Origin: a virus
DNA length: 64,000 nucleotides
Strand: one strand, 5' to 3'
Virus record (IMG/VR): IMGVR_UViG_3300035661_000018
Location: 45,520 to 109,519 of that record
The notes under the pieces are model-generated. The model ran no database searches. It was given only the letters and a program-made list of their open reading frames with translations, and was not told the origin of the DNA. Shown here in pieces: positions 9,721-27,356 of the stretch (positions within the stretch are counted from its first letter, which is position 1; each line of letters begins with the position of its first letter). The position numbers and the translations under genes were made by a program.

Positions 9721-9735
9721 TCTAAAGGAACAAAC

Positions 9736-10787: not shown

Positions 10788-10793
10788 GCAACT

Positions 10794-11060: not shown

Positions 11061-11110
11061 CACCTGCCGTTTTCAGGAAGATGGGCTGACTTAACAAGAA
11101 AGGTCAGTCC

Positions 11111-11668: not shown

Positions 11669-11700
11669 TCATGCAATAGGTTTTTGAAAAGGTCGTTATC

Positions 11701-11935: not shown

Positions 11936-11936
11936 C

Positions 11937-13013: not shown

Positions 13014-13242
13014 TGGCACAGAGGTTCTGCTGAAGACGAACATTGGTGTCGTCTCCGCGTGGTGGGCCACTCCTGTAATTACTCATGACTACTTCGACGG
13101 TGATGACATGGAAGGGTGTGAGTGGATATGCTATGACGATAAGTTCAGAATTCAAGTTGAGTGGTACAGTGATGCACCAAATGGTGAAGAATTCTGGCAT
13201 AGCAGCGCTGGGATCACTGGCTGGATGCCAATTCCTCAATAA
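12976..13242 (+). CDS. DUF551-like protein
   Basis: 88 residues beginning WLPMSTVPLDGTEVLLKT and ending SAGITGWMPIPQ. This is the DUF551 signature (WxPxxxxPxDGxxVLV ... TGWMPLP) common in phages and prophages. Function of the family is unknown. Starts inside the preceding gene. Late box and tRNA-Arg follow. Confidence 0.65.
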   Translation: MATWLPMSTVPLDGTEVLLKTNIGVVSAWWATPVITHDYFDGDDMEGCEWICYDDKFRIQVEWYSDAPNGEEFWHSSAGITGWMPIPQ

Positions 13243-13245
13243 ATA
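13238..13245 (+). promoter_or_regulatory. late promoter-like box
   Basis: AATAAATA overlapping the stop of 12976-13242 and just before tRNA-Arg. Confidence 0.4.
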
Positions 13246-13253
13246 GGTTAATT

Positions 13254-13321
13254 GTCCCCGCCTATTGGATAGTAGTCGCTCTTCTAAAGCGACGGTGAAA
13301 GTTCGACTCTTTCCGGGGGCA
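13254..13321 (+). tRNA. tRNA-Arg(TCT)
   Basis: Acceptor GTCCCCG/CGGGGGC, anticodon arm TCGCT-CTTCTAA-AGCGA, T arm GAAAG-TTCGACT-CTTTC. The D arm is short (about 14 bases). TCT reads the rare Arg codon AGA. Confidence 0.8.
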
Positions 13322-13410
13322 CACACTCCCTCATCTTGGGAGCACAACCGTCGAGGACACGCAGACGTTAAAACAGTGGTGGGAGTCCAGTGGAAGCCTG
13401 GTACCGAATT

Positions 13411-13418
13411 GATAAATA
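13411..13418 (+). promoter_or_regulatory. T4-type late promoter box
   Basis: GATAAATA 25 bases before the ATG of the secreted hydrolase. The rest of 13322-13410 shows no gene. Confidence 0.65.
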
Positions 13419-13442
13419 GTCCACTAACCTAAGGGGCTATTG

Positions 13443-14405: not shown

Positions 14406-14411
14406 GCTAAC

Positions 14412-14441
14412 AAAAACGGCGTTGTCGACAACGCCGTTTTT
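14412..14441. terminator. rho-independent terminator
   Basis: AAAAACGGCGTTGTC paired with GACAACGCCGTTTTT, a perfect 15-bp stem at the end of the hydrolase gene. Confidence 0.9.
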
Positions 14442-14491
14442 GTTTACGATAATGGAATGTCTGCCTATCCATTAACTGTCTCGATCCCGTT

Positions 14492-14701
14492 TTGGCCGTA
14501 CAATTTCAGGTTCAACAAAATGACCTGAGGTTCAGTAATGGCATTGATGTTGCGGCTGATATGACGCATGTGATTGTCACTCAATTCCAACAGTTAGACC
14601 CAACACTGTCACGATTGCATATCATTGGTGCTATCAATGGTATGCGTGCTCGCTTACGTTTGTCGCCAGAAGGGCGTCAAGCTGATCAAGTACGAAATTG
14701 A
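14492..14701 (+). CDS. small hypothetical ORF, start uncertain
   Basis: 69 codons from a TTG; the product NDLRFSNGIDVAADMTHVIVTQFQQLDP reads like real coding sequence but has no SD. An overlapping ORF from ATG 14459 (MSAYPLTVSIPFWP) in another frame may be its true beginning if a base is missing near GTTTTGGCC. Function unknown. Confidence 0.35.
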   Translation: MAVQFQVQQNDLRFSNGIDVAADMTHVIVTQFQQLDPTLSRLHIIGAINGMRARLRLSPEGRQADQVRN

Positions 14702-14781
14702 ACATAATGGAAGTTCATACATAAGTATACAAGGCCTGGTTGAGTGGTGTTAACCAGGAATTTGAAACAAGGAGCACCAAC

Positions 14782-15462
14782 ATGAAGACAATTGTCGAAA
14801 TCCACTCCGCTGAAGGCGGTGACGACAGCAAGTTGTTTGTTAAGGACCTAGCACAAGCATACGGGAAGATGTTCAGCCGTTTTGGCTGAAAGCACCATGT
14901 TGTGTTAGATACTTCGGGAGAGGTCCACATAGAAGTAAGTGGCACTGATCTAACGCAGCTTAACAATGAACCAGGAGGTCATCGCCTCCAGCGTATTCCA
15001 CCAACTGAACGCAAGGGTCGCGTCCATTCCTCATCGGTAATGGTTGCCGTAATCCGTGTTGATCAATATGCCCAACCTGACTATTCGAAGATTGATCCGT
15101 CGGACTTCAAGATTGAATGGTACTCGGGAACAGGTGCAGGTGGACAACATCGCAACAAACACCAAAACAGCATCCGCTTGACCCATGTTCCTACAGGAGC
15201 AATGGTCACATCTCAGTGTCGTAGTCGAGAGAATTCGTACGCTGAGGCAATGCAAGAATTGATCAAGCGTCTGCAATCGGACGCAAAGTACCGCAGCATT
15301 GTGGCACAGTCAATTGAACGCAAGAAGCAGATGGGCTCTGGTATGCGTGGCGACAAGGTACGGACGTACCGGTTCCAAGATAACATTGCGACTGATCATC
15401 GCACAGAGAAAAAAGTTCCGCTGTCCAAAGTAATGGACGGTAATTTTGATTTGTTGTGGTAA
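14782..15462 (+). CDS. class I release factor-like protein with in-frame UGA
   Basis: About 226 codons, with TGA at 14887 (codon 36). Before it: MKTIVEIHSAEGGDDSKLFVKDLAQAY...FSRFG; after it, same frame: KHHVVLD..GGHRLQRIPPTERKGRVHSSS and the GGQ loop GTGAGGQHRNKHQNSIRLTH. This is a release factor lacking domain 1. The stop-reading tripeptide place holds PPT, like the PxT of RF1 (UAA/UAG). GGQ is the peptidyl-tRNA hydrolysis motif. The UGA falls exactly where relatives have Trp (RGWKVEV), so it is either read-through, a TGG-to-TGA nonsense change, or an error. SD AAGGAG is good. A restart at GTG 14902 would give a shorter GGQ protein. Confidence 0.7.
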
Positions 15463-15572
15463 TTAAGTGCGGAAGGTGAATAGTGTTTGACCGTTAGTCG
15501 TCTTGACGGCAACGCGTGACGATAATCTACTGGCGATACGCCGATAGATGGACGCACGCTTCGGGTCGGGTG

Positions 15573-15854
15573 TAGCAAATCCCACTGTTTGATGTATTTG
15601 TGTTCAAGCACGGGTTTATTCCGCCGAAGCAGTTTGCTAAATTGTTCCATCGGCATGATTGGTCCGCAGAAGTTGTGTACGAGGGGAATATGAACCATCA
15701 ATTCATCAATGACGTGCGTACCGGCAAGTACCCAGTTTATGAAGGGGTCATTTGCAAAGGTGCTGACTGGACAGCTAAAATCAAAACGATTGAATTCCTA
15801 GATCGTCTCAAAGGTGAGAATGAAGGATTGTGGAACATCGAAAAGGATGAGTAA
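15573..15854 (+). pseudogene. RNA ligase C-terminal remnant
   Basis: The open frame from 15576 (or GTG 15600) gives LFDVFVFKHGFIPPKQF ... YEGVICKGADWTAKIKTIEFLDRLK. EGVICKG and KIKT are motifs IV and V of nucleotidyl-transferring RNA ligases. The N-terminal half with the KxDG lysine is absent: upstream the frame hits TAG at 15573 and TGA at 15504. So this is the tail of a second RNA ligase, decayed, or kept as an 84-residue fragment. An intact but intein-split RNA ligase lies at 23112-25419. Confidence 0.6.
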
Positions 15855-16251
15855 ATTGGCTAAAGATCGACCGTTTATTGAAATCAAGGTGTCAGGTGCG
15901 ACGGGAGCTGGCAAGAGCGCAGTTGTGCAATTGATTGCCAAGGCTCTACAGGACGCGGGGATGCAAGTGTCCGCGTTGACGTTGGATCATGATTTTCGCA
16001 CTCCTAAGCGGCATCAGCGGGCGATTGAATCGATCGCTGCGAAGGGTGCGCTGGTTGGAATCGAGGAATATGTACCCGCATGTTACTCGAACACGATCAC
16101 GGATGGGCACCAGTGGGTCCGTCACCTTGACGACATGATGACCAACGGAAGTGGGGTGTGCCACACATTCCTTGAAGCGGGTGGCCCCAACGCGCCAACG
16201 GCTCCTGAAGATCCAATTGCTGCATATGACCGAGCAATGAAGGTAATCTGA
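15847..16251 (+). CDS. P-loop NTPase, small kinase-like
   Basis: 134 residues. Walker A GATGAGKS at about residues 16-23, in a beta-loop-helix context (FIEIKVSGATGAGKSAVVQLIAKAL), followed by LTLDHDF, a possible second acidic motif. Too short for a full nucleotide kinase; there is no clear lid. The end EDPIAAYDRAMKVI is nearly the same as the end of the unrelated protein 29522-29929. Starts at an overlap with the ligase fragment; stop overlaps the next ATG. Confidence 0.6.
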   Translation: MSKLAKDRPFIEIKVSGATGAGKSAVVQLIAKALQDAGMQVSALTLDHDFRTPKRHQRAIESIAAKGALVGIEEYVPACYSNTITDGHQWVRHLDDMMTNGSGVCHTFLEAGGPNAPTAPEDPIAAYDRAMKVI

Positions 16252-16523
16252 TGCCAACAGCCAAAAAGCCAGCGATGCGTAGGACGGGACTGCTGTGTGA
16301 AAAGCATGGTGGTTCTGTCAAGCCATATGATGCGATGTGGTGCTGCGACGAATGTGCAATCGTGGGGTACCTGCCATGTGTTAAATGTAATGGTAACGCT
16401 CGTGGCTTTGGAGAAGCGTTGTTTGCTGTTGCAGGATGTGAAATGTGTGATGAATTTGTTTGTGGGACTAACGTAGATGTGCGTATGCTTTGGAATGCAG
16501 GCGTGCGCGGAAAGGTAAACTAA
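16251..16523 (+). CDS. Cys-rich zinc-binding protein
   Basis: 90 residues with CEKH, CCDEC, CVKC and CEMC, nine Cys in all, arranged as zinc ribbons (CCDECAIVGYLPCVKCNG; CEMCDEFVC). Coupled at both ends through one-base overlaps. Probably binds nucleic acid or protein; no enzyme motif. Confidence 0.6.
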   Translation: MPTAKKPAMRRTGLLCEKHGGSVKPYDAMWCCDECAIVGYLPCVKCNGNARGFGEALFAVAGCEMCDEFVCGTNVDVRMLWNAGVRGKVN

Positions 16524-16927
16524 TGGTGCATTCAGATTACAATGCGGATGTCACGATGCGCAGCAAAACGATGAGCTTCCCGGACATGCAGGATCTATTC
16601 GAGCATCTCAGAGCACTTGCCGACCGGTACAACATTACGTTCACGTTGCGCCAAAAAGTAAAGGACCATTTTGTGGTCCTTTACGATGTAAACCCAACGG
16701 TTGGCTTTACTGCGTCACAGCTGGCTGTTGTTCAGTGGGAGCGGGGGAGCTCTTTGATGCAACAGGAGCGGCCTTACCTGAACGTAGACCAGAGATCACT
16801 GCCGCGTCATCTGCAGGGAATCCTGCAGCGCGAAGCTGGCGTTGGAGAGCGGCGCGAACCTTGTTCAGGTTCACAAACGTGGCAGACATCCACTTCTTCT
16901 TGTCTGCTGGGTCCGGAAGAGTGCTAA
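16523..16927 (+). CDS. hypothetical protein, C-terminal part doubtful
   Basis: TAATG-coupled start. Residues 1-65 (MSFPDMQDLFEHLRALADRYNITFTLRQK) look coding. From about 16655 the frame runs through a terminator hairpin for the opposite gene and then over that gene in antisense, with Gln/Arg/Ser-rich sequence of poor coding character. The true end is probably within about 16700, perhaps in another frame. Confidence 0.4.
   Translation: MVHSDYNADVTMRSKTMSFPDMQDLFEHLRALADRYNITFTLRQKVKDHFVVLYDVNPTVGFTASQLAVVQWERGSSLMQQERPYLNVDQRSLPRHLQGILQREAGVGERREPCSGSQTWQTSTSSCLLGPEEC
16657..16685 (-). terminator. rho-independent terminator for the minus-strand gene
   Basis: On the minus strand GTAAAGGACCA/TGGTCCTTTAC (11 bp, 5-base loop) is followed by TTTTT. 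It ends 16707-17087. Confidence 0.8.
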
Positions 16928-17087
16928 CGATCTTCAACGCACGGCTGCAAGCGTCGAGACGCTTGATCAGTTCGTCCAGCGACAGATCATCACTGAGCTC
17001 CACAACTTCCATGAGTGACGAGTAAGTGGGGTTGTCAGTGCTATCTTTGGCAAGACCAGCAAGCTGTTTTAGGCGGGTTGTATCCAT
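16707..17087 (-). CDS. hypothetical late protein
   Basis: 126 residues (MDTTRLKQLAGLAKDSTDNP...). A helical middle (LSLDELIKRLDACSRALKIVST ... FVNLNKVRAALQRQLRAAG) and an Ala/Pro/Ser tail suggest a small virion or scaffold-type protein. Start set by SD GGAG. A minus-strand late box lies at 17109-17116 and a terminator at 16657. It is a single late gene opposite to its neighbours. Confidence 0.6.
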   Translation of the reverse strand: MDTTRLKQLAGLAKDSTDNPTYSSLMEVVELSDDLSLDELIKRLDACSRALKIVSTLPDPADKKKWMSATFVNLNKVRAALQRQLRAAGFPADDAAVISGLRSGKAAPVASKSSPAPTEQQPAVTQ

Positions 17088-17108
17088 GTGTTTGATCTCC
17101 AAATAGGA

Positions 17109-17116
17109 TATTTATG
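17109..17116 (-). promoter_or_regulatory. T4-type late promoter box
   Basis: CATAAATA on the minus strand, 22 bases before the start at 17087. Confidence 0.7.
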
Positions 17117-17272
17117 CTAACATTGTTTCTTGATACAGAGTTTTACCGACTTCGGAAGCCGAATGGAATGCAGCAGTACTACAACATTGACCCGCGCCAA
17201 CACCATGCGCTCGTTGATGCAAAAGCAAACCACCATGGCTGGTGGCAAGGATATCAGGCAGGACTACAATGA
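17114..17272 (+). CDS. small hypothetical protein
   Basis: 52 residues (MLTLFLDTEFYRLRKPNGMQQYYN...), Gln/His/Tyr-rich. Its stop overlaps the start of the ADP-ribosylglycohydrolase as ATGA, so both are probably translated together. No family recognised. Confidence 0.5.
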   Translation: MLTLFLDTEFYRLRKPNGMQQYYNIDPRQHHALVDAKANHHGWWQGYQAGLQ

Positions 17273-18225
17273 ATAACACGATTGACAAACTCCATGGCGG
17301 TTTATACGGCGCCTTAATTGGTGACGCCGTTGGTGTACCGTATGAGTTCAAGACAACTCTACAGATCCCCCACCCCCCAACGATGGTTCCACCACCTAAG
17401 TTCAACCGATCGTATCTTGGCGTCCCTCCTGGCACGTGGTCTGATGACGGTGCGCTGACGCTATGTCTGATGGAATCGTTGTTGAAGGCCGACGACTGGC
17501 TGGATACCGACTGGGTGCACGCGTTCGGACACCGGATGTCAAGGTGGCGATACGAAGGGTACATGACGCCAGACAACAAGAAGTTTGACATTGGAAACCA
17601 GACCTCGGAGGCAATCCGTCTCCTGGAGTTTGGCCTTGATCCACTCGAGCTGACGTATACAGAATACGAAAACGGCAACGGCGGCTTGATGCGTGCACTT
17701 CCTGTTGTTCTGGCGTTGTGGAAGTCGGAAGATATCGACCTAATCTGCGCCGTCTCGGACATGCATCACATGGTGTCGCACGGCCATCCAATCTCGTTGA
17801 TCTGCGGTCAAATCTACGTAATGACAGCGATCATGCTGCTGCGTGGCGATAAGTTTAACGACGCCTTCTGGGCTGCCGTTGACATTGTTGAAGCTCGGTG
17901 TGACGATACCGAATGGCAAGGGCATTTCGCTACTGTCCTTGCAGGGAAAGACGAAGAGCCTCGCGGCACGGGATACGTTGTTGACACGCTATGGTCGGCA
18001 CGTTTTGCAGTGCAAAGTTCGCTGATGGGCGATAACACGTTCATGAATGCAATCGAACGCGCCATCCTTCTCGGTAACGACACAGACACAACTGCATGCG
18101 TGGCAGGTGGATGGGCTGGTATCATCTACGGCTGGAAGGGCATTCCTCAAGAGTGGCGTGATGGGTTGCGCGGTAAAGACCTCGTTAAGCCAATGGCAGA
18201 TCGACTGGTGGCACTAAATGACTGA
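17269..18225 (+). CDS. ADP-ribosylglycohydrolase (DraG family)
   Basis: 318 residues. N-terminal GGLYGALIGDAVGVPYEF and GTWSDDGALTLCLMESLL are the first family motifs (GxxxGDAxGxPxE; SDDTxL, the metal Asp pair). GNGGLMRALPV is the middle motif and AILLGNDTDTTACVAGGWAG the last (GxDxDTxAxxxGxxAG). All metal and ADP-ribose contact positions look present. It would remove ADP-ribose from proteins, nucleic acids or free adducts. Possibly it counters host ADP-ribosylating defence; this fits with the NAD genes at 53975-55644. SD AGGA, ATGA-coupled. Confidence 0.85.
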   Translation: MNNTIDKLHGGLYGALIGDAVGVPYEFKTTLQIPHPPTMVPPPKFNRSYLGVPPGTWSDDGALTLCLMESLLKADDWLDTDWVHAFGHRMSRWRYEGYMTPDNKKFDIGNQTSEAIRLLEFGLDPLELTYTEYENGNGGLMRALPVVLALWKSEDIDLICAVSDMHHMVSHGHPISLICGQIYVMTAIMLLRGDKFNDAFWAAVDIVEARCDDTEWQGHFATVLAGKDEEPRGTGYVVDTLWSARFAVQSSLMGDNTFMNAIERAILLGNDTDTTACVAGGWAGIIYGWKGIPQEWRDGLRGKDLVKPMADRLVALND

Positions 18226-18616
18226 ATACGTTAAGCAGGTAATTGTCGTCCGCAAGGACCTTAAAATGCCGAAGGGCAAGATTGCAGCACATGCTGCCAT
18301 GGCTCCTCTGCTGAAGATGATGGACAAAGACTTTGGTACCAGTGAAACGGAAGGTTGGATGCTTCGATTCAAGCACGGAAGCGCTCTCGACAGCTGGTTG
18401 AATGGGTCGTACACCAAGGTTTGTCTTGGTGTAGAAGACGAGGAGCAATTGCTTGCCCTGTTCGCAGCCGCAGAACAGGCAGGCTTGCCGTGTGCTTTGA
18501 TTCGCGACAACGGCTTGACCGTCTTTAACGGTGTTCCGACGAACACCTGCATTGCGATTGGTCCTGACTACGAGAGCAAGATCAATTCGATCACGGGACA
18601 CCTTCCTCTGCTGTAA
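18218..18616 (+). CDS. peptidyl-tRNA hydrolase, Pth2 type
   Basis: 132 residues. KQVIVVRKDLKMPKGKIAAHAAMA is the Pth2 N-terminal motif (KQVxVVRxDLxMxxGKxAAQxxHA). Then KVCLGVEDEEQLLALFAAAEQAGLPCALIRDNG and TCIAIGPDYESKINSITGHLPLL match the C-terminal core, including the GPxxxxxxxxxTGxLxL end. Pth2 is the archaeal/eukaryotic form; bacteria use an unrelated Pth. It frees tRNA from stalled peptidyl-tRNA, which fits a phage with many tRNAs and a release-factor-like gene. Overlaps the stop of the preceding gene. Confidence 0.85.
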   Translation: MTEYVKQVIVVRKDLKMPKGKIAAHAAMAPLLKMMDKDFGTSETEGWMLRFKHGSALDSWLNGSYTKVCLGVEDEEQLLALFAAAEQAGLPCALIRDNGLTVFNGVPTNTCIAIGPDYESKINSITGHLPLL

Positions 18617-18619
18617 ATA
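18612..18619 (+). promoter_or_regulatory. late promoter-like box
   Basis: TGTAAATA overlapping the stop of the Pth2 gene, 48 bases before the tRNA at 18667. Confidence 0.45.
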
Positions 18620-18666
18620 CGCTACCAGCGTTGCTAATATTGGCCAAGAAGCTTGCCAGTATCATT

Positions 18667-18756
18667 GCTTCCATAGTTTAGCGGTAAAACCCCCGGCTTA
18701 TACCCGGTATAGCTCTAGATAAGGGCGCGTCGTAGGTTCGAATCCTACTGGAAGTA
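18667..18756 (+). tRNA. tRNA-like, anticodon TAT (Ile, AUA), long variable arm
   Basis: Acceptor GCTTCCA/TGGAAGT, D stem GTTT/AAAC, anticodon arm CCGG-CTTATAC-CCGG, a variable-arm hairpin GCTCT-AGATA-AGGGC, T arm GTAGG-TTCGAAT-CCTAC. A long variable arm with an Ile anticodon is unusual; compare 5057-5144. Confidence 0.65.
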
Positions 18757-18790
18757 CTTTTTGGAATTATGGGATACAATAGTCCCCGCA

Positions 18791-18820
18791 CATAAATATC
18801 TCCATAATTATGGAGATATC
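18791..18820 (+). promoter_or_regulatory. late promoter plus SD-hiding hairpin (homing-gene module)
   Basis: CATAAATA at 18791-18798 overlaps the 5' arm of a perfect 24-base palindrome at 18796-18819 (ATATCTCCATAA/TTATGGAGATAT). The 3' arm contains GGAG, the SD of the HNH gene at 18821. A late transcript would start inside the 5' arm and could not close the hairpin. Confidence 0.75.
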
Positions 18821-19462
18821 ATGAGTCTAACCCAAACGTTAATGCAAATGCCTGACGCAGAGTTGGCGCTGCTAATAGCGCAATCCTCATCCAAGCACGC
18901 TGTCTTGGCGTCGTTAGGTTTCAAGTGTGAAGATTGGCGAGCTTACAAGTATTTAAGCCTGTTTATTGAGCGAAATCATGTTGATACCACTCATTTCAAA
19001 TCTGCAGGCCGCCCCGTCAGGTATACGGTAGAGGAGGTTATCGATGCTGTGCAACAGTGCACAAATATCTCACAAGTTCTACGAAAATTGGGGCTAAGTG
19101 AAGTGGGTGGAAATGCCCGGACAATCAAAAATCTGATTGAGAAACATCAGATTTCAACAGTGCACTTCACTTCAGCCAGGATTGGGGTTACGCGTTCCAG
19201 CGAAGACATTCTATGTAAAAATAGCACCGCATCTAGAACGGTGGTACGACATCATATCATCGTGACAAAAGCCATTCCGCACGTATGTCAAATGTGCAAT
19301 AATTCAGGGGTGTGGAACTCTACCAAGCTAACATTGGAACTAGACCACATCAATGGTGATCGAACCAACAATGAAGTTTCAAATTTGAGATTCTTGTGCC
19401 CAAACTGTCATTCTCAAACACCAACATTTAGAGGAAAGAACAATACCGCGCGGGATGCATGA
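18821..19462 (+). CDS. HNH homing endonuclease, free-standing
   Basis: 213 residues, same design as 5977-6615: HTH-like segments (VLASLGFKCEDWRAYKYL; VLRKLGLSEVGGNARTI), then CQMCNNSG, LELDHINGDRTNNEVSNLR and CPNCHSQT with all HNH and zinc ligands. Located between tRNA-like genes 18667 and about 19445; its 3' end overlaps the 5' strand of the second one. Start set by the hairpin-embedded SD. Confidence 0.85.
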   Translation: MSLTQTLMQMPDAELALLIAQSSSKHAVLASLGFKCEDWRAYKYLSLFIERNHVDTTHFKSAGRPVRYTVEEVIDAVQQCTNISQVLRKLGLSEVGGNARTIKNLIEKHQISTVHFTSARIGVTRSSEDILCKNSTASRTVVRHHIIVTKAIPHVCQMCNNSGVWNSTKLTLELDHINGDRTNNEVSNLRFLCPNCHSQTPTFRGKNNTARDA

Positions 19463-19512
19463 CCTCTCCAGATAAGAGAGTTGTAATGTGGGTTCGATTC
19501 CCACCGCTGGTA
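19445..19512 (+). tRNA. tRNA-like, anticodon GAT (Ile), degenerate
   Basis: Anticodon arm CTCTC-CAGATAA-GAGAG has A at position 33. T arm GTGGG-TTCGATT-CCCAC is perfect. Acceptor ACC-GCG pairs with CGCTGGT only if one base is missing. D arm is shortened. Its 5' strand overlaps the end of the HNH gene, so the insertion probably damaged it. Confidence 0.35.
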
Positions 19513-19513
19513 C

Positions 19514-19852
19514 TTACTCTCGAGCGGCAACAGTTTCATTGTACTTGCGGCGGGTTTCTTCAGACCATGTCGTTCCAAGATGCGTTCCATCCTTCCCAAA
19601 GTTTGGATTCTTCTCGCCTAACTTGGTTTCTGCCAACTTTGCACGGTGTTCGTCAGTTCGAGGAGGGAGCTTTCGTCCCTTCAATGGCGACACCCTGCCT
19701 TTGAGTGGTGACACCTTTCCTACTCTAGCCTCCTTCATTCGTTGTTTGGTTTCCTCAGAACGCTTGACGCCCTTCTTGGCGTCATTGATACGCTGCTTGG
19801 TTTCCTCTGATAGAACTTTGTTATCTCCTCCTGTAGTTAAGCCGTCGTACAA
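19514..19852 (-). pseudogene. remnant of GIY-YIG/NUMOD3 homing endonuclease
   Basis: The last 113 residues of a longer minus ORF are NUMOD3-type DNA-binding repeats: SEETKQRINDAKKG, RSEETKQRMKEARVGK, TWSEETRRKYNET. The segment LYDGLTTGGDNKVLSEETK is the usual join behind a GIY-YIG catalytic domain. Upstream the reading frame to 20098 is Arg-rich and not GIY-YIG, so the nuclease domain is gone. It lies against the damaged tRNA at 19445. Confidence 0.65.
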
Positions 19853-19855
19853 ACG

Positions 19856-20080
19856 ATGGTCGGCAACGACGGCCGGTTGAAGAGCGTTGCAGGTAAGAAG
19901 GTCGTCAAGATCGCTGTCAATTTGTCGGCGGCAACGTCGACACCGATGTCGAAGGGTGATGACTGGTACTCGATGGCTGGTTGGTCTCCAACGGAACATC
20001 GTTGGAGACCGGCAATCCGCGACAAGTCGTCTGTTGTCGATCAATTGTCTGGTCCGTACCGGGGTGGAATGACCCAGTAA
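19856..20080 (+). CDS. hypothetical ORF
   Basis: 74 residues (KKVVKIAVNLSAATSTPMSK ... DDWYSMAGWSPTEHRW). No SD. It reads more naturally than the antisense ORF over the same bases, so it may be a real small gene or the 3' part of one cut by the homing-element remnant next to it. Function unknown. Confidence 0.35.
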   Translation: MVGNDGRLKSVAGKKVVKIAVNLSAATSTPMSKGDDWYSMAGWSPTEHRWRPAIRDKSSVVDQLSGPYRGGMTQ

Positions 20081-20113
20081 CTTGTTGTCGTAAGACACAA
20101 AACTACGTAATAT

Positions 20114-20138
20114 GGGAGGCTGCTTAGCACAGCCTCCC
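20114..20138 (+). terminator. strong hairpin, possible terminator
   Basis: GGGAGGCTG/CAGCCTCCC 9-bp stem with a 7-base loop, without a T run. 20081-20209 holds nothing else except the leader of the capsid gene. Confidence 0.5.
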
Positions 20139-20209
20139 CCTGCATTTGGGGATAGGGTTAGTGTTAAATCGACCCAATAAGTACGACAACAATAACTAAA
20201 AGGTACTAT

Positions 20210-21349
20210 ATGACACTAATCACATACTTAACAAAAGCATACAGGAAAGCTGTAGGTTGGTTTGTTACTAAGCGCGACAACCGAATCTGGGAAGAACGGC
20301 TCGCTTCAAAGCTAAAGCTGTTCACTGCGAACGACCATGCATGGGTTACCCCCGTGTTGCAGAATGAGATTGCGTTTATTCGCAGCTCGTTCTCGAACTA
20401 CAAGTTCGACTCATCACAGCAGGCGCTGCAGACAGATGAAGTGGCAACAATGGTGTTTAATGCCACTGTGTACGCATGCTTGGAACTAGTCCCTCTGAGA
20501 GGACTAGTTAGTATTCAACCATTGCAAGGTCCCGTCGGATTGGTATACCGGGCGGCGTACAAGTATCAAGATCCCGCAGTACAGGACAGCCAGTCGCTCC
20601 ACCTTGAAGTGCTCAAGCACGCCGTTGAGGCAAAGACTCACAAGCTGGCAGCAAGGTTTAATGTTGAGGCAGCACAAGACTTATTCGCGATCTACGGGAT
20701 TGACATCGCAGACGGGATTGCACGAGCCCTTGGTGCTGAAGTTGCGTACGAGTTGATTGCAGAGGTCCTCTGTGATTTGAACAAGATCGCAACCCACCGT
20801 CAGACAGTATCAGGCCTGCCGCACGATGACAATGCGATCATGATCAACGCAGTTGCGAATACAATTGCATCAACTACCCGTCGCGGCGCGGGCAACTTTA
20901 TCGTCACATCTCCAAGGGGCGTCGCTCTACTGCAATCTGTATCGAAGAGTGGCTATGTCAAAACACCGGACTCTGAGCAGACGCACACCTATGCGCTGAG
21001 GCAAGTCGGTACTCTCAACGGCCAAATGCGTGTGTACGTGTCAATGGTTGACATGAACGATAGTTCACCAAACATTGAATACCTGATCGGATACAAGGGT
21101 CCTAGCGACGTTGATGCGGGATACGTCTTTAGCCCGTACAATCTAGTGGTATATAGTGGCGCCACGATTGATCCGAATACATACACCCCAATGATCAACC
21201 TCATGACTCGGTACGGTAAGACGGGTATCCAGTGTGATCCAACGACATCGAGTGAATCTGCGGATTACTACGGAGTGGTCACGGTTGAGGATGTATCGTA
21301 CGCTGTCCCTGTTCCTGCGGTTGACTTACCCGCATGGGTTAGAAGATAG
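20210..21349 (+). CDS. gp23/gp24-like capsid protein
   Basis: 379 residues. Residues about 130-200 (HAVEAKTHKLAARFNVEAAQDLFAIYGIDIADGIARALGAEVAYELIAEVL) match the T4 gp23 core (VxAKxRxLxAxYTxExAQDLKAxHGxDxExEL...). RRGAGNFIVTSPRGVALLQ matches a later gp23 motif (GxxNFIVxSPxVA). Shorter than T4 gp23 (521), nearer to the vertex protein gp24. The first 110 residues probably include the prohead segment. Single gene, leader without a clear late box, SD weak. Capsid role secure; major versus vertex protein not decided. Confidence 0.75.
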   Translation: MTLITYLTKAYRKAVGWFVTKRDNRIWEERLASKLKLFTANDHAWVTPVLQNEIAFIRSSFSNYKFDSSQQALQTDEVATMVFNATVYACLELVPLRGLVSIQPLQGPVGLVYRAAYKYQDPAVQDSQSLHLEVLKHAVEAKTHKLAARFNVEAAQDLFAIYGIDIADGIARALGAEVAYELIAEVLCDLNKIATHRQTVSGLPHDDNAIMINAVANTIASTTRRGAGNFIVTSPRGVALLQSVSKSGYVKTPDSEQTHTYALRQVGTLNGQMRVYVSMVDMNDSSPNIEYLIGYKGPSDVDAGYVFSPYNLVVYSGATIDPNTYTPMINLMTRYGKTGIQCDPTTSSESADYYGVVTVEDVSYAVPVPAVDLPAWVRR

Positions 21350-21393
21350 TCCCGTCGCTTGTGAAAGCACAACATACCTATAAGGAAACAATC

Positions 21394-21585
21394 ATGTCAT
21401 TCACGTTCACCGCCGTTGGCACCCGAGCCACAATTCCTGCTGGCAAGCAGATCATCAAGAACGGTACACCTGCACGTCAGACTCGTCCAAGCGAAGTCAC
21501 GATCGTCAAGGCTGAACCAGCCCGCCGTGGCAAGACCCGGATCTACTGGAAGTCAATGGGTTACCTGAACTCTACTCTGGTCTAA
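21394..21585 (+). CDS. small basic protein downstream of capsid gene
   Basis: 63 residues, Lys/Arg/Thr-rich (SFTFTAVGTRATIPAGKQI ... RGKTRIYWKSMGYL). SD AAGGA, followed by a terminator. Position behind the capsid gene suggests a small capsid-associated protein; this is inference. Confidence 0.5.
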   Translation: MSFTFTAVGTRATIPAGKQIIKNGTPARQTRPSEVTIVKAEPARRGKTRIYWKSMGYLNSTLV

Positions 21586-21601
21586 TACGCCAGAACACCA
21601 A

Positions 21602-21628
21602 TAAAAGCCGCCGCTGCGCGGCTTTTTG
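21602..21628 (+). terminator. rho-independent terminator
   Basis: AAAAGCCG ... CGGCTTTTT hairpin directly after the stop of 21394-21585. Confidence 0.85.
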
Positions 21629-21684
21629 CATATCTGGAGAGACGGAATGGTGACGGAGACAGAACGCAATGGATAAGTAGGTGT

Positions 21685-22383
21685 ATAAACTACACTAAAA
21701 TTTACCAGTCGCTCGTAACTCGAGCCAAGAATCGACCACCGCTGACTACGTATGTTGAACGTCATCACATTCTCCCGAAGTGCATGGGTGGTTCAGATAA
21801 CCTGGTTGATCTTACACAACAAGAACACTTTGTTGCTCATCAACTGCTGGTGAAAATGCACCCAGAACGTCCGTCGTTAATTTGGGCATTAGCCTGTATA
21901 ATGGGCGGAGAGCGTCGAAACAACAAATATTATGGTTGGATCCGAACGTGTTTTGCTGTAGAAATGAGCAAACCAAAGTCTGTAGAAACTCGGCGTAAGA
22001 TGAGTGAGTATTGGTCTGCTTATCGTAAAGCCAACCCCGTATCTGATGAAGAACGACAACGGATGCGTGAGCGAAATCTTGGCAAAAAACTTTCCGCTGA
22101 AACCAAGGCTAAATGCAGTGCAGTGCACAAAGGTAAGGTATTCTCAGAGGAGCATCGAGAGAATATAGGTAAGGCACGACGTGGCAAGAAAATGCCGCCA
22201 AAGACCGAAGAATATAAACAAATGCAACGTGTTTGGGCGGAGCGTAAAGCAGCTGGGGTTGCACGAGGGCCTCACATTAAACGAAGTGCTGAGGAGCTGC
22301 GCATTTATAAGCGTGAGCTTGCCCGACAACAGCGCGCTCGTAAGAAAGCTGCACAAGTACAAATTGAGGTATCTGATGATTGA
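21685..22383 (+). CDS. HNH endonuclease with NUMOD3-like repeats, start codon unclear
   Basis: About 232 residues. INYTKIYQSLVTRAKNRP then YVERHHILPKCMGG, NLVDLTQQEHFVAHQLL: a complete HNH fold of the phage type (HHIxPxxxGGxDxxxNLVxLTxxEHxxAH). The C-terminal half has NUMOD3 segments (KPKSVETRRKMSEYW; KLSAETKAKCSAVHKG; VFSEEHRENIGKARRG). The expected start position is ATA AAC TAC at 21685 with AGGT just upstream; the first in-frame ATG (21784) would remove the catalytic HH. So either an AUA start or a lost start. Overlaps the CYTH gene by 8 bases. Confidence 0.65.
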   Translation: MNYTKIYQSLVTRAKNRPPLTTYVERHHILPKCMGGSDNLVDLTQQEHFVAHQLLVKMHPERPSLIWALACIMGGERRNNKYYGWIRTCFAVEMSKPKSVETRRKMSEYWSAYRKANPVSDEERQRMRERNLGKKLSAETKAKCSAVHKGKVFSEEHRENIGKARRGKKMPPKTEEYKQMQRVWAERKAAGVARGPHIKRSAEELRIYKRELARQQRARKKAAQVQIEVSDD

Positions 22384-22846
22384 AACGGAACGTAAGTTTT
22401 TGGTCACAAACGACGGCTGGAAGAAAGCTTCAGCTAAGAAGATCAAGATCAGGCAAGGCTATCTGGCAAAGTCCAAAGGGATCACAGTCCGAGTACGTAT
22501 TGCCAACGAAAAGGCATTCATCACGGTCAAGGGAAAGCGTGTCAATCTCTCTTGTCCGGAGTATGAATACGAGATCCCTCTCGTTGACGCGGAAGAAATG
22601 ATCACGATGAGTGTCACCCTTCTGATCGAGAAGACACGCTACCTAGTGTTCGTCAACGGGATTAAGTGGGAGATCGACGTTTTTAAGGGCGTCAACGCCG
22701 GTCTGGTAATGGCGGAGGTTGAATTCGATGAAGGTGTGGCACCTACGCTCGGTCAGTTGCCAACATGGGTTGGCACAGAAGTGTCATACGACAAGCGTTA
22801 TACCAACGTATACATCGCGGAGCATGTTGTACCCCATTCTCTTTGA
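22376..22846 (+). CDS. CYTH-domain triphosphate tunnel protein
   Basis: 156 residues beginning MIETERKFLV, the ExExK signature (E-T-E-R-K) that binds metal and triphosphate. Then KIKIRQGYLAKSKGITVRVRIANEKAFITVKGK gives the paired basic strands of the tunnel, and EYEYEIPL the next acidic strand. CYTH proteins act on thiamine triphosphate, inorganic tripolyphosphate or RNA 5'-triphosphates, or make cAMP. The substrate here is unknown. An RNA triphosphatase-like role next to the RNA ligase would be reasonable but is inference. Confidence 0.8.
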   Translation: MIETERKFLVTNDGWKKASAKKIKIRQGYLAKSKGITVRVRIANEKAFITVKGKRVNLSCPEYEYEIPLVDAEEMITMSVTLLIEKTRYLVFVNGIKWEIDVFKGVNAGLVMAEVEFDEGVAPTLGQLPTWVGTEVSYDKRYTNVYIAEHVVPHSL

Positions 22847-22870
22847 CCCTTGTATAAACCGGTCTATCGT
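22843..22870 (+). promoter_or_regulatory. sigma70-like early promoter
   Basis: TTGACC, 16-base spacer, TATCGT; overlaps the end of the CYTH gene. Confidence 0.45.
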
Positions 22871-22908
22871 TGTAGACTTGCGGCACTTTGACAGACCGGG
22901 AGATCACA

Positions 22909-23085
22909 ATGGCACACTTTCACCGGGACGAGCGGGGCTTGCTCGTCAAATGCTACCACGAGTCGAAGTCCCAACTTCGCTCCCTTAGCTTTTGGGTTGG
23001 GATCACGATCTCATTCCCAATAGAACACTTTATCTGGGAGCATATACCACCTTTCTCCTGGATCACGCAATCACTAGGGTTGTGA
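22909..23085 (+). CDS. small membrane-associated protein
   Basis: 58 residues. Charged start (MAHFHRDERGLLVKCYHESK), then a hydrophobic segment SFWVGITISFPIEHFIWEHI. SD GGGAG eight bases before the ATG. It lies just before the RNA ligase and could share its promoter. Function unknown. Confidence 0.5.
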   Translation: MAHFHRDERGLLVKCYHESKSQLRSLSFWVGITISFPIEHFIWEHIPPFSWITQSLGL

Positions 23086-23111
23086 GTGCGGTTATACACA
23101 AGAAGAACATC

Positions 23112-23567
23112 ATGACACAACGAATGATCAAGTTTCCGAGCATCAGTCAATTCCGCAACGTTGTGCACACGGTTGTTAGCCGTGCCCAGTACGTTGGTAA
23201 GGATGAGAACGTCGAACCCGTGTTCGACGAAGCAAAGCCGCTGCCTGTCCTGCCATTTCAAGGCACAACCAAGCTGCACGGGTGCGTTCACGCAGATACT
23301 CTGATCACGCTTGCTGATGGATCACGTGAACGGATCAAGGACGTTGTACCGGGGACATCGGTTCTATCGTACGATGAACACACGCAGCAAATTGTGGTTG
23401 ATGTTGTGGATTCAGTCATCGTTCAAGAGTTGGACAAGCCTTGGATTGAGTTAAGTTTCAACAACGGCACTACTCTAAAGTGCACAGTAGACCATCCTCT
23501 GCTTACCACGGAAGGTTGGGTTGCGGCCGAAGATATTACCGAAGACCATCAATTAATCATCGATTAA
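23112..23567 (+). CDS. RNA ligase N-terminal half fused to N-intein
   Basis: 151 residues. Residues 1-57 are the N-extein: KFPSISQFRNVVHTVVSRAQ ... PFQGTTKLHG, the start of a DRB0094/T4-Rnl2-type RNA ligase, with the AMP-accepting Lys in KLHG. From Cys58 the intein begins: CVHADTLITLADGSRERIKD is block A and TLKCTVDHPLLTTEGWV is block B, with the TxxH motif (TVDH). It stops at 23567 after about 94 intein residues. The partner is 24388-25419. Spliced product would read KLHG-TNAAV, the intact ligase motif I. Confidence 0.9.
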   Translation: MTQRMIKFPSISQFRNVVHTVVSRAQYVGKDENVEPVFDEAKPLPVLPFQGTTKLHGCVHADTLITLADGSRERIKDVVPGTSVLSYDEHTQQIVVDVVDSVIVQELDKPWIELSFNNGTTLKCTVDHPLLTTEGWVAAEDITEDHQLIID

Positions 23568-23579
23568 CCACCAACTTGG

Positions 23580-23618
23580 CATAAATGTCTCTACATTGGT
23601 TTCATGGAGATATTTATG
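23580..23618 (+). promoter_or_regulatory. late promoter inside an SD- and start-hiding hairpin
   Basis: CATAAATGTCTC (23580-23591) pairs with GAGATATTTATG (23607-23618): 12 bp with one G-T pair and a 15-base loop. The 3' arm holds the SD GGAGA and the ATG of the endonuclease, and the 5' arm is itself the late promoter box. Early read-through RNA would be closed; late RNA would start after the box and stay open. Confidence 0.8.
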
Positions 23619-24452
23619 ACAGTAACAGAGACGTGGTTTCAGGGCAAGCGGAGCATGGATAGGTGCTTGTGTGAAAATTGTGGTGCACAATATATTCAGC
23701 GATCTTGTGACACCAGGACACGGCGCGCACGAAAATTGTCAGAGGGATTAGATTTGTGTGCCGATTGTACTAAGATGCGACACACAGCCGCTTTGGTTGC
23801 AAATGGAATTCGAGCCTTGCGAAAGCGTACCCCTGAGCAGAGAAAACAAGATGCAGCCAATGCTGGCAGGATTTCAGCGCAGAAGCACGACCCTGCTAAA
23901 AGCAGTCGTTTTACAAATGAGCGTTGGAACCAACTTACCCGAGAAGAACAACAACGGCGTGTCAAAAAAGCTAGTGCAGCATCTCACGAATTGCTAAAGG
24001 ACCCCGTCCACGCAGCAGCTCGATATGCAAAAATCTTTGCACAAGCACAATTAGGCTACATGTCCAAGGCTCATGCTCAATTGCATGGGTTAATAGAACA
24101 ATATGGTTTTGAAAGTCACGTTCAAATCAGCGCCATGCAGGTGGATGAATGTAACCGACAGTTAAAGATTGTTGTTGAATATAATGGTGATATGTGGCAC
24201 TGTAATCCAAAAACGTGGCGAGCTGACCAATATAACACTATCATTAAGATGACAGCCGGTGAAAAATGGGCCAAGGACCGAGCGCGATATGCTTTCTTAC
24301 GTAGAGCTGGATACACAGTAATTGTCATCTGGGAAAGTGGTTGGAAATTAGACCCACAAAAATACATCGATAGAATAAAGGATACGTATGATGAAATTAG
24401 TAAGCAAAAAGAGCATTCAGAGAGAAACGTGCTACGACCTGTCAGTACATAA
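23616..24452 (+). CDS. Vsr-like homing endonuclease inside the fractured ligase gene
   Basis: 278 residues. N-terminal zinc knuckle CENCGAQYIQRSCDTR ... CADCTKMR, a basic helical middle (KRTPEQRKQDAANAGRISAQK), and a C-terminal domain of the Vsr/PD-(D/E)xK type: LHGLIEQYGFESHVQI, IVVEYNGDMWHCNPKTW, WAKDRARYAFLRRAGYTVIVIWESGW. The EYNGDxWHxNP and VIWE parts are the usual metal and fold signatures of endonucleases found in split-intein genes. Start 23616 is set by the hairpin-bound SD. Its 3' end overlaps the next ORF by 65 bases. It probably spreads the split arrangement to uninterrupted ligase genes. Confidence 0.8.
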   Translation: MTVTETWFQGKRSMDRCLCENCGAQYIQRSCDTRTRRARKLSEGLDLCADCTKMRHTAALVANGIRALRKRTPEQRKQDAANAGRISAQKHDPAKSSRFTNERWNQLTREEQQRRVKKASAASHELLKDPVHAAARYAKIFAQAQLGYMSKAHAQLHGLIEQYGFESHVQISAMQVDECNRQLKIVVEYNGDMWHCNPKTWRADQYNTIIKMTAGEKWAKDRARYAFLRRAGYTVIVIWESGWKLDPQKYIDRIKDTYDEISKQKEHSERNVLRPVST

Positions 24453-25419
24453 TCATCACAACTTTTTTGCCAACGGTATTTGTGTTCACAATACGAACGC
24501 TGCCGTAGCACACCAAGCAGGGACTACGTGGTGTCAATCTCGTGATAACATCATTACGATGATGTCGGACAATGCTGGCTTTGCGACGTGGGTCCACTCG
24601 CAGCGCGAGTTGTTTGACTGGATGTTCTCGTACCTAAAGGCCGTCCTCAACCCAACGGATGACCAGGCGATCATGATCTTCGGTGAATGGTGTGGTGGCA
24701 GCATTCAAAAGAGCGTCGGGCTGAACCAGCTGCCGAAGATGTTCGTGGTGTTCAACATCGCCGTCGTTGATGCAGAGGGTGAGAAGGTATGGCATGGTCG
24801 ACATCTGATCCCCGCCCTGTTCGATGAGATCGAGCTCCAAGGTAAGGCCATTCCCGCCCTCAAGAATACGTATCAATTTGAGACGTTCGGTATTGAGATC
24901 GACTTTGCCCGCGCATATGCAGCTCAGGAACCGTTGGCTGCAATGACGCTCGAAGTTGAGAAGGTATGCCCTGTCGCCAAGGCCCTCGGCGCTGTTCCCA
25001 ATGATAAGGGAATAATCGTCGGTGAAGGGATTGTTTGGATATGCACTCACCCTGACTATCAAGATAGCAGCTATTGGTTCAAGGTGAAGGGCGACGAGCA
25101 CGCTCCGAAGACAAAGGTCAAGACGCTGGCTGCGGCAGACGTTGTCCGCCTGGACTCGATCAACGAGCTTGCGGATTTGCTGTGCCCGACGTGGCGTCTG
25201 GAACAGATGTACGAGCAAACGTTCAACACGTTGAATGGCGGTAAGCCAGACATCAAGAGGACGGGCGAGTTCATCCGTGCAATGATGGCCGACATCGTCA
25301 AAGAGTGTTCCGATGATGTTGCGGCGTCCGGGTTTACCATGAAAGACATTAGTGGGCGCGTCAGTAAGCACGCACGAGACTATTTGATCAATCAACTGAA
25401 CGCAGAAGCATTCGGTTGA
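24388..25419 (+). CDS. C-intein fused to RNA ligase C-terminal part
   Basis: 343 residues. Residues 1-35 are the C-intein: QRETCYDLSVHNHHNFFANGICVHN, with block F and block G and the final His-Asn. Residue 36 is Thr, the +1 nucleophile. From there TNAAVAHQAGTTWCQSRDN continues ligase motif I, GEWCGG is motif III, GEGIVW is motif IV, and WFKVKGDEH with KTKVKTL carries motif V. The rest is a helical C-terminal domain. It repairs or joins RNA ends, perhaps tRNA cut by host anticodon nucleases. No SD of note; the overlap with the endonuclease ORF may limit translation. Confidence 0.9.
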   Translation: MMKLVSKKSIQRETCYDLSVHNHHNFFANGICVHNTNAAVAHQAGTTWCQSRDNIITMMSDNAGFATWVHSQRELFDWMFSYLKAVLNPTDDQAIMIFGEWCGGSIQKSVGLNQLPKMFVVFNIAVVDAEGEKVWHGRHLIPALFDEIELQGKAIPALKNTYQFETFGIEIDFARAYAAQEPLAAMTLEVEKVCPVAKALGAVPNDKGIIVGEGIVWICTHPDYQDSSYWFKVKGDEHAPKTKVKTLAAADVVRLDSINELADLLCPTWRLEQMYEQTFNTLNGGKPDIKRTGEFIRAMMADIVKECSDDVAASGFTMKDISGRVSKHARDYLINQLNAEAFG

Positions 25420-25477
25420 TCCCGTTTTAGGGGTTCAATAAGATTGCGTCATCTCTAACTCAATGAGAACACCCAAC

Positions 25478-26050
25478 ATGAAACCGTTGTTCGTCGACGC
25501 TGCCAAAGCACCGTCAATCTCTCAACTCCACGAGCAGACGTCCGTGCCGTATCCGCACAGCACGGAACTGGCCGTCCAACCTACAACTCCTGTGCGAGCG
25601 ATCTCAATGTCCGACATCGACAAAGTCGGGCAGCAGACCGAGGTTCGTGTAGGTGCCACAACCAAGAAGATTCTGGATGGTGCCAAGACAAACGACGCGG
25701 GCGAGTTCGGCACCAAGCTGAACGTCCTGATCGCCACAACCAAGGAGCTGAACCCGAAGACGATGGGTAAGCAAGGGCTGCTGTCCAAGCTCGTCCACTT
25801 CGGCGGCTCTGTCAAGGAGCGGATGTTGTCGGAGTTCGAAAGCGTGACCAAGCGCATCGAGACGCTGGTCGCAGAACTCGACCGCACGGCTACCCTGGCT
25901 GAACAGCGTGCTGACCAGTGCGATGCGCTGTTCGAGGAGAACTACCAGACGTTCCGCCAACTGGACATCGACAAAGCCACGCTCGCTTCGATGGTTGCCG
26001 AACTCAACGCACAACTCGCCAGCCTGCCGCAGGTTTCTTCGCACGGATGA
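25478..26050 (+). CDS. TelA-like protein, first half
   Basis: 190 residues. Middle: ELNPKTMGKQGLLSKLVHFGGSVKERMLSEFESVTKRIETLVAELDRTATLAEQRADQC, the pattern of the TelA/KlaA (toxic anion resistance) family, which is a long helical bundle. The gene stops after residue 190 and the family's second half is the next ORF, with an ATGA overlap. So TelA is encoded in two coupled pieces. Family function in phages is unknown. Start 25478 preferred by spacing from GAGAA. Confidence 0.6.
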   Translation: MKPLFVDAAKAPSISQLHEQTSVPYPHSTELAVQPTTPVRAISMSDIDKVGQQTEVRVGATTKKILDGAKTNDAGEFGTKLNVLIATTKELNPKTMGKQGLLSKLVHFGGSVKERMLSEFESVTKRIETLVAELDRTATLAEQRADQCDALFEENYQTFRQLDIDKATLASMVAELNAQLASLPQVSSHG

Positions 26051-26418
26051 CGCAGGACGCCCCCGTCGATCCGAGCACGTTCCGTCCCCGCTTGACCCTG
26101 ATGGCTACTCGCTTGCCTACAATCCTGGCGGAGTGCGAAGACCATGCGGAGAAGTGCAAGGCGAACCAGCGTGACATGGCGCTCAAGCTCGCCGTGCTGG
26201 TTGCCGCTGTCGACAGTGCAGGGACGATTTCTGACAACACCCTTGATTCGGCAATCTACAATCGCCGTCAACTGCTCCAGCAGGGGTGTATGCAGTCCAA
26301 ACTGATCGTCCAGCAACTGGAAGCGAATATGCAGGCGATCATCGACCTGCGTACCGCCGTCGATCAAATGCTGAACATCACCCTTCCGCAGTTCGAGGCG
26401 GCCCGAACCCGCAGTTGA
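26047..26418 (+). CDS. TelA-like protein, second half
   Basis: 123 residues, all helical: RPRLTLMATRLPTILAECEDHAEKC ... NRRQLLQQGCMQSKLIVQQLEANMQAIIDLR. This matches the C-terminal half of TelA proteins (RRQxLxxQxxVxxQxxxxxxLI..N). ATGA overlap with 25478-26050 implies co-translation. It is either a natural split or a frameshifted single gene. Confidence 0.55.
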   Translation: MTQDAPVDPSTFRPRLTLMATRLPTILAECEDHAEKCKANQRDMALKLAVLVAAVDSAGTISDNTLDSAIYNRRQLLQQGCMQSKLIVQQLEANMQAIIDLRTAVDQMLNITLPQFEAARTRS

Positions 26419-26443
26419 CTCTTACCCCAATTGCGAGTAAGAT
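26415..26443 (+). promoter_or_regulatory. sigma70-like early promoter
   Basis: TTGACT, 17-base spacer with TTACCCC, TAAGAT. The TTGAxx-TxACCC pattern recurs before other early genes here. Confidence 0.7.
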
Positions 26444-26476
26444 GCCCGCATCAACAACGAGCTGAGGATTCTCACT

Positions 26477-26707
26477 ATGATCAAGTCCACGATTCTGCCG
26501 CAAGTGATGGATCGCCTGGAAACCGTGACGTTCGACGTGAACAACCGTGAACACCTCGAAGCGTTCCGCATGCTGACCGATCGTCGCAACTCGCGCCAAC
26601 ATCCCCGTCTCCGCTTCCGACTGGAACACCCGTACATTGACGTCCGTGCGATGCTGTACGACAAGGTCGGCCAAGCGTTCCTTGCTTCGCAAGGACTCAC
26701 TGCCTGA
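26477..26707 (+). CDS. hypothetical early protein
   Basis: 76 residues, basic (MIKSTILPQVMDRLETVTFD ... RRNSRQHPRLRFRLEHPYID). It has a promoter directly upstream and is followed by AT-poor spacer. Helix-strand pattern; could bind nucleic acid. No family recognised. Confidence 0.5.
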   Translation: MIKSTILPQVMDRLETVTFDVNNREHLEAFRMLTDRRNSRQHPRLRFRLEHPYIDVRAMLYDKVGQAFLASQGLTA

Positions 26708-26785
26708 AATGTCAACCTTCTACGACACTGCAGATCGACACTGCAGTCGAAAGAAGCGGTAATCGGGTTGCTCATATATACCAGC

Positions 26786-26968
26786 ATGAGCACAAAAGAT
26801 CTTGAACAAGTCAAGTTAGCAGCTACCGTGGCACGCCTGGAAAAGGTTGTCTCGGCGCTGCTAATCCGCGTTGCGACCCTGGAAAAAGAGACAAAGCGCC
26901 TGCGCGGGAGCGTCGGACGTGCTACAGACCAAGTCGGCTACTTAGACCGACGTACACAGGGGAAATAA
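26786..26968 (+). CDS. small coiled-coil protein
   Basis: 60 residues, almost one continuous heptad helix (EQVKLAATVARLEKVVSALLIRVATLEKETKRLR). Ends three bases before the spanin gene, so it is probably in the lysis unit. Role unknown. Confidence 0.5.
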   Translation: MSTKDLEQVKLAATVARLEKVVSALLIRVATLEKETKRLRGSVGRATDQVGYLDRRTQGK

Positions 26969-26969
26969 G

Positions 26970-27356
26970 ATGTGGTTGACATTATTACGCATGTGGTGGA
27001 AGCCAATTGCAGCCGTACTTTTGATCGTCGCGGTCTATGGCTATTGGGCTCATCTCGAGAGCACAATTGAAGGGCAGCAGAAGACGATCGTCACTCTGCA
27101 AACATCCGTTGCAACGCTGCAAGCCAACAACGAGAAGCTGAACGCAACCGTACAAGCCAACAGCGACGCTGTTGTTAAGCTGGCGGAAGGCACGCAGCAA
27201 ACCGTTCAGGGGTTTGCTGCGCTGCAGAACACCGTCACTGCACGTACTGGCACATTGCAATCGCAGTTGCGTGGTATCTTGGCTGAAAAGAAGCCACAGA
27301 CTTGTGATGACACGATCAAGTATCTGATCGACGCGGCACAAGGATACCACAAATGA
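26970..27356 (+). CDS. inner-membrane spanin (Rz-like)
   Basis: 128 residues. One N-terminal membrane span at about 10-27 (WKPIAAVLLIVAVYGYWAHL), then a periplasmic coiled coil (TIEGQQKTIVTLQTSVATLQANNEKLNATVQ) to residue 100. This is the i-spanin design. Stop overlaps the lipoprotein start by ATGA, the usual i-spanin/o-spanin coupling. The pair fuses inner and outer membranes in the last step of lysis. Confidence 0.75.
   Translation: MWLTLLRMWWKPIAAVLLIVAVYGYWAHLESTIEGQQKTIVTLQTSVATLQANNEKLNATVQANSDAVVKLAEGTQQTVQGFAALQNTVTARTGTLQSQLRGILAEKKPQTCDDTIKYLIDAAQGYHK

Follow-up and report, generated by a model that had tools for sequence, protein, structure and literature searches.

How could an RNA ligase gene still give a working enzyme when it is broken three residues past its catalytic lysine? 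The question is raised by positions 23112–25419 of the window, a stretch of 64,000 nucleotides from the IMG/VR virus record IMGVR_UViG_3300035661_000018, in which two open reading frames (ORFs), each encoding part of a ligase and part of an intein, flank a third that encodes an apparent endonuclease. We consider it very likely that this is an Rnl2-type ligase gene fractured by a mobile split intein together with a free-standing homing endonuclease, and that its halves are rejoined by trans-splicing. The layout is not a product of chance, because it is found at the same codon in independent contigs and because another IMG/VR record (150,677 bp, the window's own having 109,519 bp) repeats the 11 kb around the locus without a difference. 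The locus is made up as follows.

23112–23282, plus strand: N-extein of the RNA ligase, 57 residues, ending in motif I, K54-L-H-G
23271–23273, plus strand: codon of the catalytic Lys, in motif I of the N-extein
23283–23567, plus strand: intein N-fragment (IntN), 94 residues, carrying Cys1 and the block B motif TVDH and closed by a stop codon
23604–24452, plus strand: putative Vsr/EDxHD-type homing endonuclease, 282 residues, with N-terminal CxxC...CxxC and core E192-x-N-G-D-x-x-H-C-N-P
24377–24382, plus strand: Shine-Dalgarno-like AAAGGA, read from the sequence within the 3′ end of the endonuclease ORF and presumed to serve the C-half
24388–24492, plus strand: intein C-fragment (IntC), 35 residues from the first ATG or 34 from the second (24391), as in close orthologues, ending in His-Asn
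24493–25419, plus strand: C-extein of the RNA ligase, 308 residues, beginning at the +1 Thr, with QSR, GEWCG (III), VVF (IIIa), GEG (IV) and KVK (V)

A split intein in the active site of an RNA ligase

The two intein halves are encoded by separate ORFs, each with its own start and stop. In the N-half ORF (23112–23567, 151 residues), residues 1–57 are ligase and residues 58–151 are intein; the C-half ORF (24388–25419, 343 residues) opens with an IntC that ends in VHN and continues with TNAAV. An earlier note on this DNA had read the first ORF as ligase up to KLHG followed by intein blocks A and B, and the last as blocks F and G followed by ligase, and profile searches support both readings. Specifically, TIGR01445 (intein_Nterm) matches residues 58–151 of the N-half (E = 6.6e-10; 39.9 bits, the cut-off being 24.5), as does PF14890 (1.4e-9, above its cut-off), and TIGR01443 (intein_Cterm) matches residues 16–36 of the C-half at 1e-5, again above the cut-off. 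Hint-domain matches are thus present on both sides, for the two stretches (N-half residues 58–151 and C-half residues 1–35) in which the note had proposed to look for them. When the intein is joined in silico (129 residues), the PF14890 match rises to 9.5e-18, and its best match in the PDB is the NrdJ-1 split intein (8ubs, 7.6e-12). The splicing residues are all in place: Cys1 (C58), TVDH, the terminal His-Asn and the +1 Thr. These are the sequence features of a class 1 split intein, and trans-splicing itself is predicted. Homing endonucleases of the family to which the middle ORF is assigned below also occur in group I introns, I-Bth0305I being one, and the insertion might on that ground be taken for an intron (group I or group II) or some other RNA element; however, intein splicing blocks are encoded on both flanks and score significantly against the profiles, and we give such an element a negligible probability.

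The ligase sequences on either side of the intein belong together. PHROG 548 (RNA ligase) matches residues 34–338 of the C-half at 3.8e-36, and PF09414, which matches there at 7.5e-10, improves to 7.3e-15 on the joined ligase of 365 residues. An alignment of this protein with seven other phage ligases is gapless at the junction, and KLHG and TNAAV, as had been proposed, join into the nucleotidyl-lysine motif of Rnl-type ligases. On the joined protein KLHG begins at residue 54, GEWCG at 121, FVVFNI at 141, GEG at 234 and KVK at 254. A structure predicted for the C-half from a five-sequence alignment (pLDDT, the predicted local distance difference test score, 64.9) has T4 RNA ligase 2 as its top Foldseek match in the PDB (2hvq, E = 9.8e-9; 1s68, E = 9.7e-6), an enzyme that shares fold and motif order with the window ligase but whose gene in T4 is uninterrupted. 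By motifs and modelled fold the window ligase is of the Rnl2 type with its ligase motifs intact, and RNA ligation activity is predicted.

The break lies three residues past the catalytic Lys, which is left on the 151-residue chain with all other ligase motifs on the 343-residue chain, and we infer from this separation that ligase activity needs trans-splicing. We envisage that a mobile split intein and a Vsr/EDxHD endonuclease entered the Rnl2-type ligase gene in a tailed phage, between Gly and Thr of K-L-H-G^T. Two ligase fragments would now be translated, each fused to one intein half; the intein halves would associate, fold into a single Hint domain and cut themselves out, with KLHG and TNAAV linked in the resulting 365-residue ligase. 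Were the halves to associate but not splice, the active-site loop would still hold a Hint domain. At this site a Thr (or Ser) that belongs to the ligase itself would serve as +1 nucleophile, and unspliced copies would be useless, so that little short of an exact deletion would rid the gene of the element. The endonuclease, for its part, would cut intein-free alleles at the site and drive the copying of the whole cassette into them.

The endonuclease between the halves

The earlier note had described the middle ORF as a Vsr-like endonuclease. Its sequence resembles Vsr weakly (TIGR00632, E = 0.036; PF18741, 7e-8 but below its cut-off), and a search of PDB sequences returned no relevant match; the family was assigned by fold alone. 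In a low-confidence predicted model (pLDDT 61.9) the top Foldseek match is I-Bth0305I (3r3p; probability 1.00, E = 0.012), with Vsr itself (1cw0) third at probability 0.99. The conserved residues and the relatives of the protein point the same way. The description as an endonuclease stands, and its Vsr-like fold is suggested by a model of modest confidence and weak sequence scores. The endonuclease at the same place in a broken Rnl1 locus (L202) matches PF03852 (Vsr) at 2.6e-5, just below the cut-off. All 16 relatives recovered in a scan of viral contigs sit in fractured RNA-ligase loci, and within the reach of that search the lineage looks dedicated to the ligase site. Relatives in cultured phages include ORFs, some of them annotated ‘VSR’, that lie between the pieces of split DNA polymerases (Aes508, PTm1, VPALA).

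The same site in other phage ligases

Viral contigs were scanned with ligase, N-half, endonuclease and intein alignments. Besides the window, at least ten Rnl2-type phage loci, all distinct, have their split intein at this same codon, KxHG^T/S (L017; L034, also L033 and L035; L052; L053; L095; L101, also L102–L108; L109, also L110 and L111; L206; L212; L218). IntN has 94–98 residues in these ten loci and IntC 34–35 (42 by the start used in L218). The catalytic residues of intein and ligase are intact in the window and its relatives. Two of the ten loci have no endonuclease, the halves being separated by spacers of 119 bp (L109) and 345 bp (L212); hence the split either persists after the endonuclease is lost or predates its gain.

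These layouts also bear on whether the two halves might be made as one precursor, by frameshifting or read-through, with the intein acting in cis. In the window the last 65 bp of the endonuclease ORF are also the first 65 of the C-half ORF, and with the start of the C-half inside the endonuclease ORF the translation of the two may be coupled. Against a single precursor, the N-half has its own stop codon where split inteins are usually divided, a Shine-Dalgarno-like site is available for the C-half, and in L109 the two halves lie in different reading frames across the spacer; we regard this explanation as extremely unlikely and keep to splicing between two chains. The C-half probably starts at the second ATG (24391), 8 nucleotides past AAAGGA, because close orthologues begin at that Met.

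The Rnl2 family is not the only one affected. Three ligases of the T4 Rnl1 type are broken at the equivalent KxDG^S (L202; L203 and L290; L284–L289); once joined, the ligase of L202 gives a match to T4 RNA ligase 1 at 7e-12, and its broken gene adjoins an intact Rnl2. The active-site motifs of RNA ligases, KxHG of Rnl2 and KxDG of Rnl1, thus appear to be a recurrent home of phage split inteins. In phage 3300025839_000011 a broken Rnl1 (L285, without an endonuclease) and a broken Rnl2 (L101, with one) lie about 5 kb apart, with a DNA ligase gene among those between them. To make both RNA ligases this phage would need two separate trans-splicing events, and cross-splicing between its two inteins would have to be avoided. 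Searches of cultured phages from the N-half of either the window or L053 showed no split intein at this RNA-ligase site, and a search of bacterial and archaeal genomes gave four uninterrupted ligases and no intein.

Two further observations come from these contigs. In L212 (5663–6461) the C-half is interrupted again, between FGVKGI and the GEG motif, by sequence that no Rfam family matches, and L219 (3926–5954) holds the split-intein C-half of another protein, which looks like a DNA polymerase, with a Vsr-like endonuclease before it.

Mobility and selection

It is informative to compare the carriers with intein-free alleles. The intein-free allele L161 and the carrier L101 share 85.9% of their DNA positions as far as the KLHG codon boundary exactly, and 78.6% once the +1 codon is passed; that codon reads ACT in L161 and TCA in L101. 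On a maximum-likelihood tree of 101 ligases the 11 carriers require 10 state changes, at least 9 of them forced by well-supported branches, although the tree comes from a quick search, L206 is a long branch and such counts do not separate gain from loss. The inteins are also more alike than their hosts: between L206 and the other Rnl2 types ligase identity is 24–31% and intein identity 41–53%, and between L218 and L212 the values are 33% and 62%. Synonymous divergence (dS, by NG86) is less exposed to constraint than identity and runs in the same direction: in all three measurable pairs the ligase value exceeds those of both intein and endonuclease. For ligase, intein and endonuclease in turn, the values are 1.39, 0.85 and 0.82 (L034/L053), 1.93, 1.00 and 0.91 (L053/L052) and 1.05, 1.03 (only marginally lower) and 0.63 (L052/L101), all of them rough because near saturation. 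Finally, L053 and L095 are identical in nucleotide sequence from about 3.7 to 4.9 kb, over IntN and endonuclease, and have islands of 64–76% identity farther out on both sides, a pattern as expected of recent copying, to which general phage mosaicism adds its share.

The ratio of nonsynonymous to synonymous divergence (dN/dS) is 0.22–0.29 for the intein, 0.17–0.23 for the ligase and 0.18–0.48 for the endonuclease. These values speak to the idea that the locus is a decayed element, remnants of intein and ligase from which nothing is spliced and in which the ligase is dead. Some natural split-intein precursors are partly or not at all active in isolation (PMC11923092), and the function of the present locus is predicted from its sequence; yet ratios of about 0.2–0.3 for intein and ligase in close pairs, and catalytic residues intact throughout, make decay very unlikely. 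Taken together, the patchy distribution of carriers, the low dN/dS and the lower dS of intein and endonuclease suggest a functional, mobile element. Homing into intein-free alleles is proposed because of the layout, the dedicated endonuclease lineage, the existence of such alleles and the distribution of carriers. The fractured-gene layout named in the earlier note is hence borne out by the anatomy of the locus, by the ten other loci at the same site, by the intein-free alleles and by purifying selection.

Several points nonetheless weigh against this interpretation. Trans-splicing, cleavage of the empty site and RNA repair by the spliced ligase are all deduced from sequence. Vsr membership of the endonuclease comes from the low-confidence model and weak sequence scores. 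The higher similarity of inteins than of ligases could partly reflect different constraint, phage mosaicism alone could give part of the L053/L095 pattern, and with dS near 1 or above the dN/dS values are rough.

The residue that follows the intein differs between the two groups. Of 90 non-redundant intein-free ligases, 87 have Thr after KxHG, two have Met and one has Ser; of the 11 carriers, nine have Ser there and two (the window and L017) have Thr. The difference in Ser and Thr has a Fisher p of about 3e-10, a test that ignores relatedness, though in the tree almost all carriers stand apart from one another. It seems that Ser arrives with the intein, or is selected by it, as +1 nucleophile, so that KxHGS would remain in the spliced ligase. 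An intein-free ligase from a Bacteroidetes metagenome-assembled genome (L188) has KLHGS instead of KLHGT, which could be a footprint of intein loss.

It is also worth considering whether splicing does more than restore the ligase. The earlier note held that the enzyme depends on trans-splicing, which the anatomy of the motifs supports, and that splicing or its loss switches the enzyme, for which we found no support. The site would disable the enzyme until it is spliced, and conditional splicing is known in some other inteins, for example P. horikoshii RadA (PMC5790916). However, nothing at the locus is a sign of regulation, homing accounts for the distribution and the site without a switch, and intein-free close relatives manage without one; a fractured gene in which conditional splicing regulates RNA repair is therefore quite improbable. 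In general, the usual proposal for phage RNA ligases is the sealing of cleaved tRNAs. That splicing times RNA (tRNA) repair during infection we think unlikely.

Relation to known systems

Fractured genes with an IntN, a Vsr-like endonuclease and an IntC were reportedly described by Dassa et al. in 2009, mainly in phages and in eight types of host enzyme, said to be those of DNA synthesis and repair; PMC7090010 cites that study. The locus studied here has the same three-part layout as those cases; the host differs, being an RNA ligase split inside its nucleotidyl-lysine motif. A close parallel is gp43 PolB1 of Aeromonas phages Aes508/Aes123, which has the same three ORFs and likewise an overlap of endonuclease and C-half (endonuclease identity 33% over 78 residues); however, the host there is a DNA polymerase and the intein is cysteine-less (PMC11923092), whereas the window intein has Cys1. 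The Aes123 PolB1 split intein splices (PMC11923092). The NrdJ-1 and gp41-1 split inteins have a similar split position in other hosts, with identities to the window intein of 34% and 24% in an alignment.

RNA ligases were already known to carry inteins: an intein-containing RtcB family is listed (NCBIfam NF038162). RtcB depends on GTP and is not related to the present ligase. Pseudaeromonas phage KLEP7 has a ligase of the same family as the window's (OM654377, UNY40322), but there the intein is contiguous and sits at motif III, GEWAG^C...HN^S. The KLEP7 locus (L001, OM654377.1, 2977–5100) has an endonuclease-like insert within the intein and marks a second intein site in the ligase family. The earlier note knew of no described RNA-ligase case with a fractured gene; our literature search, within its limited reach, agrees, having found no published split intein in an ATP-dependent RNA ligase, though one may have been described elsewhere. 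The layout is thus known and an RNA ligase as its host is apparently new. Fractured genes would hereby extend to RNA-repair enzymes, in two ligase families and at the enzyme's most sensitive spot, and the active-site location agrees with the view that mobile inteins take hold at positions where anything but exact removal destroys the host protein. Because close ligases include forms with the endonuclease, forms without it and intein-free alleles, the homing cycle should be open to stepwise study. The new natural split inteins, of about 94 and 34 residues and including a pair that should not cross-splice, may also be of use for protein engineering.

Surroundings of the locus

Megablast over 24 kb found no close relative of the window among cultured phages. 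Scans for sigma-70 promoters and terminators gave sites no more frequent than in shuffled sequence, and a scan of 19000–27000 for an intron or other RNA element gave no Rfam match up to E = 1. Twelve tRNA genes lie upstream of the ligase (5057–18757), with more than one gene for some amino acids (Asn, Ile, Thr). The ligase gene is closely preceded by one for a CYTH-domain protein (22376–22846; PF01928, 5e-13); CYTH enzymes act on triphosphates, and a link of this protein to RNA end processing is possible. Three homing-endonuclease-like ORFs (18761–19462, 19514–20098 and 21784–22383) surround the major head protein gene (20210–21349), the first of them directly 3′ of a tRNA-Ile gene. The window also encodes an ADP-ribosylglycohydrolase (17242–18225; PF03747, 2.6e-57) and a TelA-like protein (25463–26050; PF05816, 5.4e-15).
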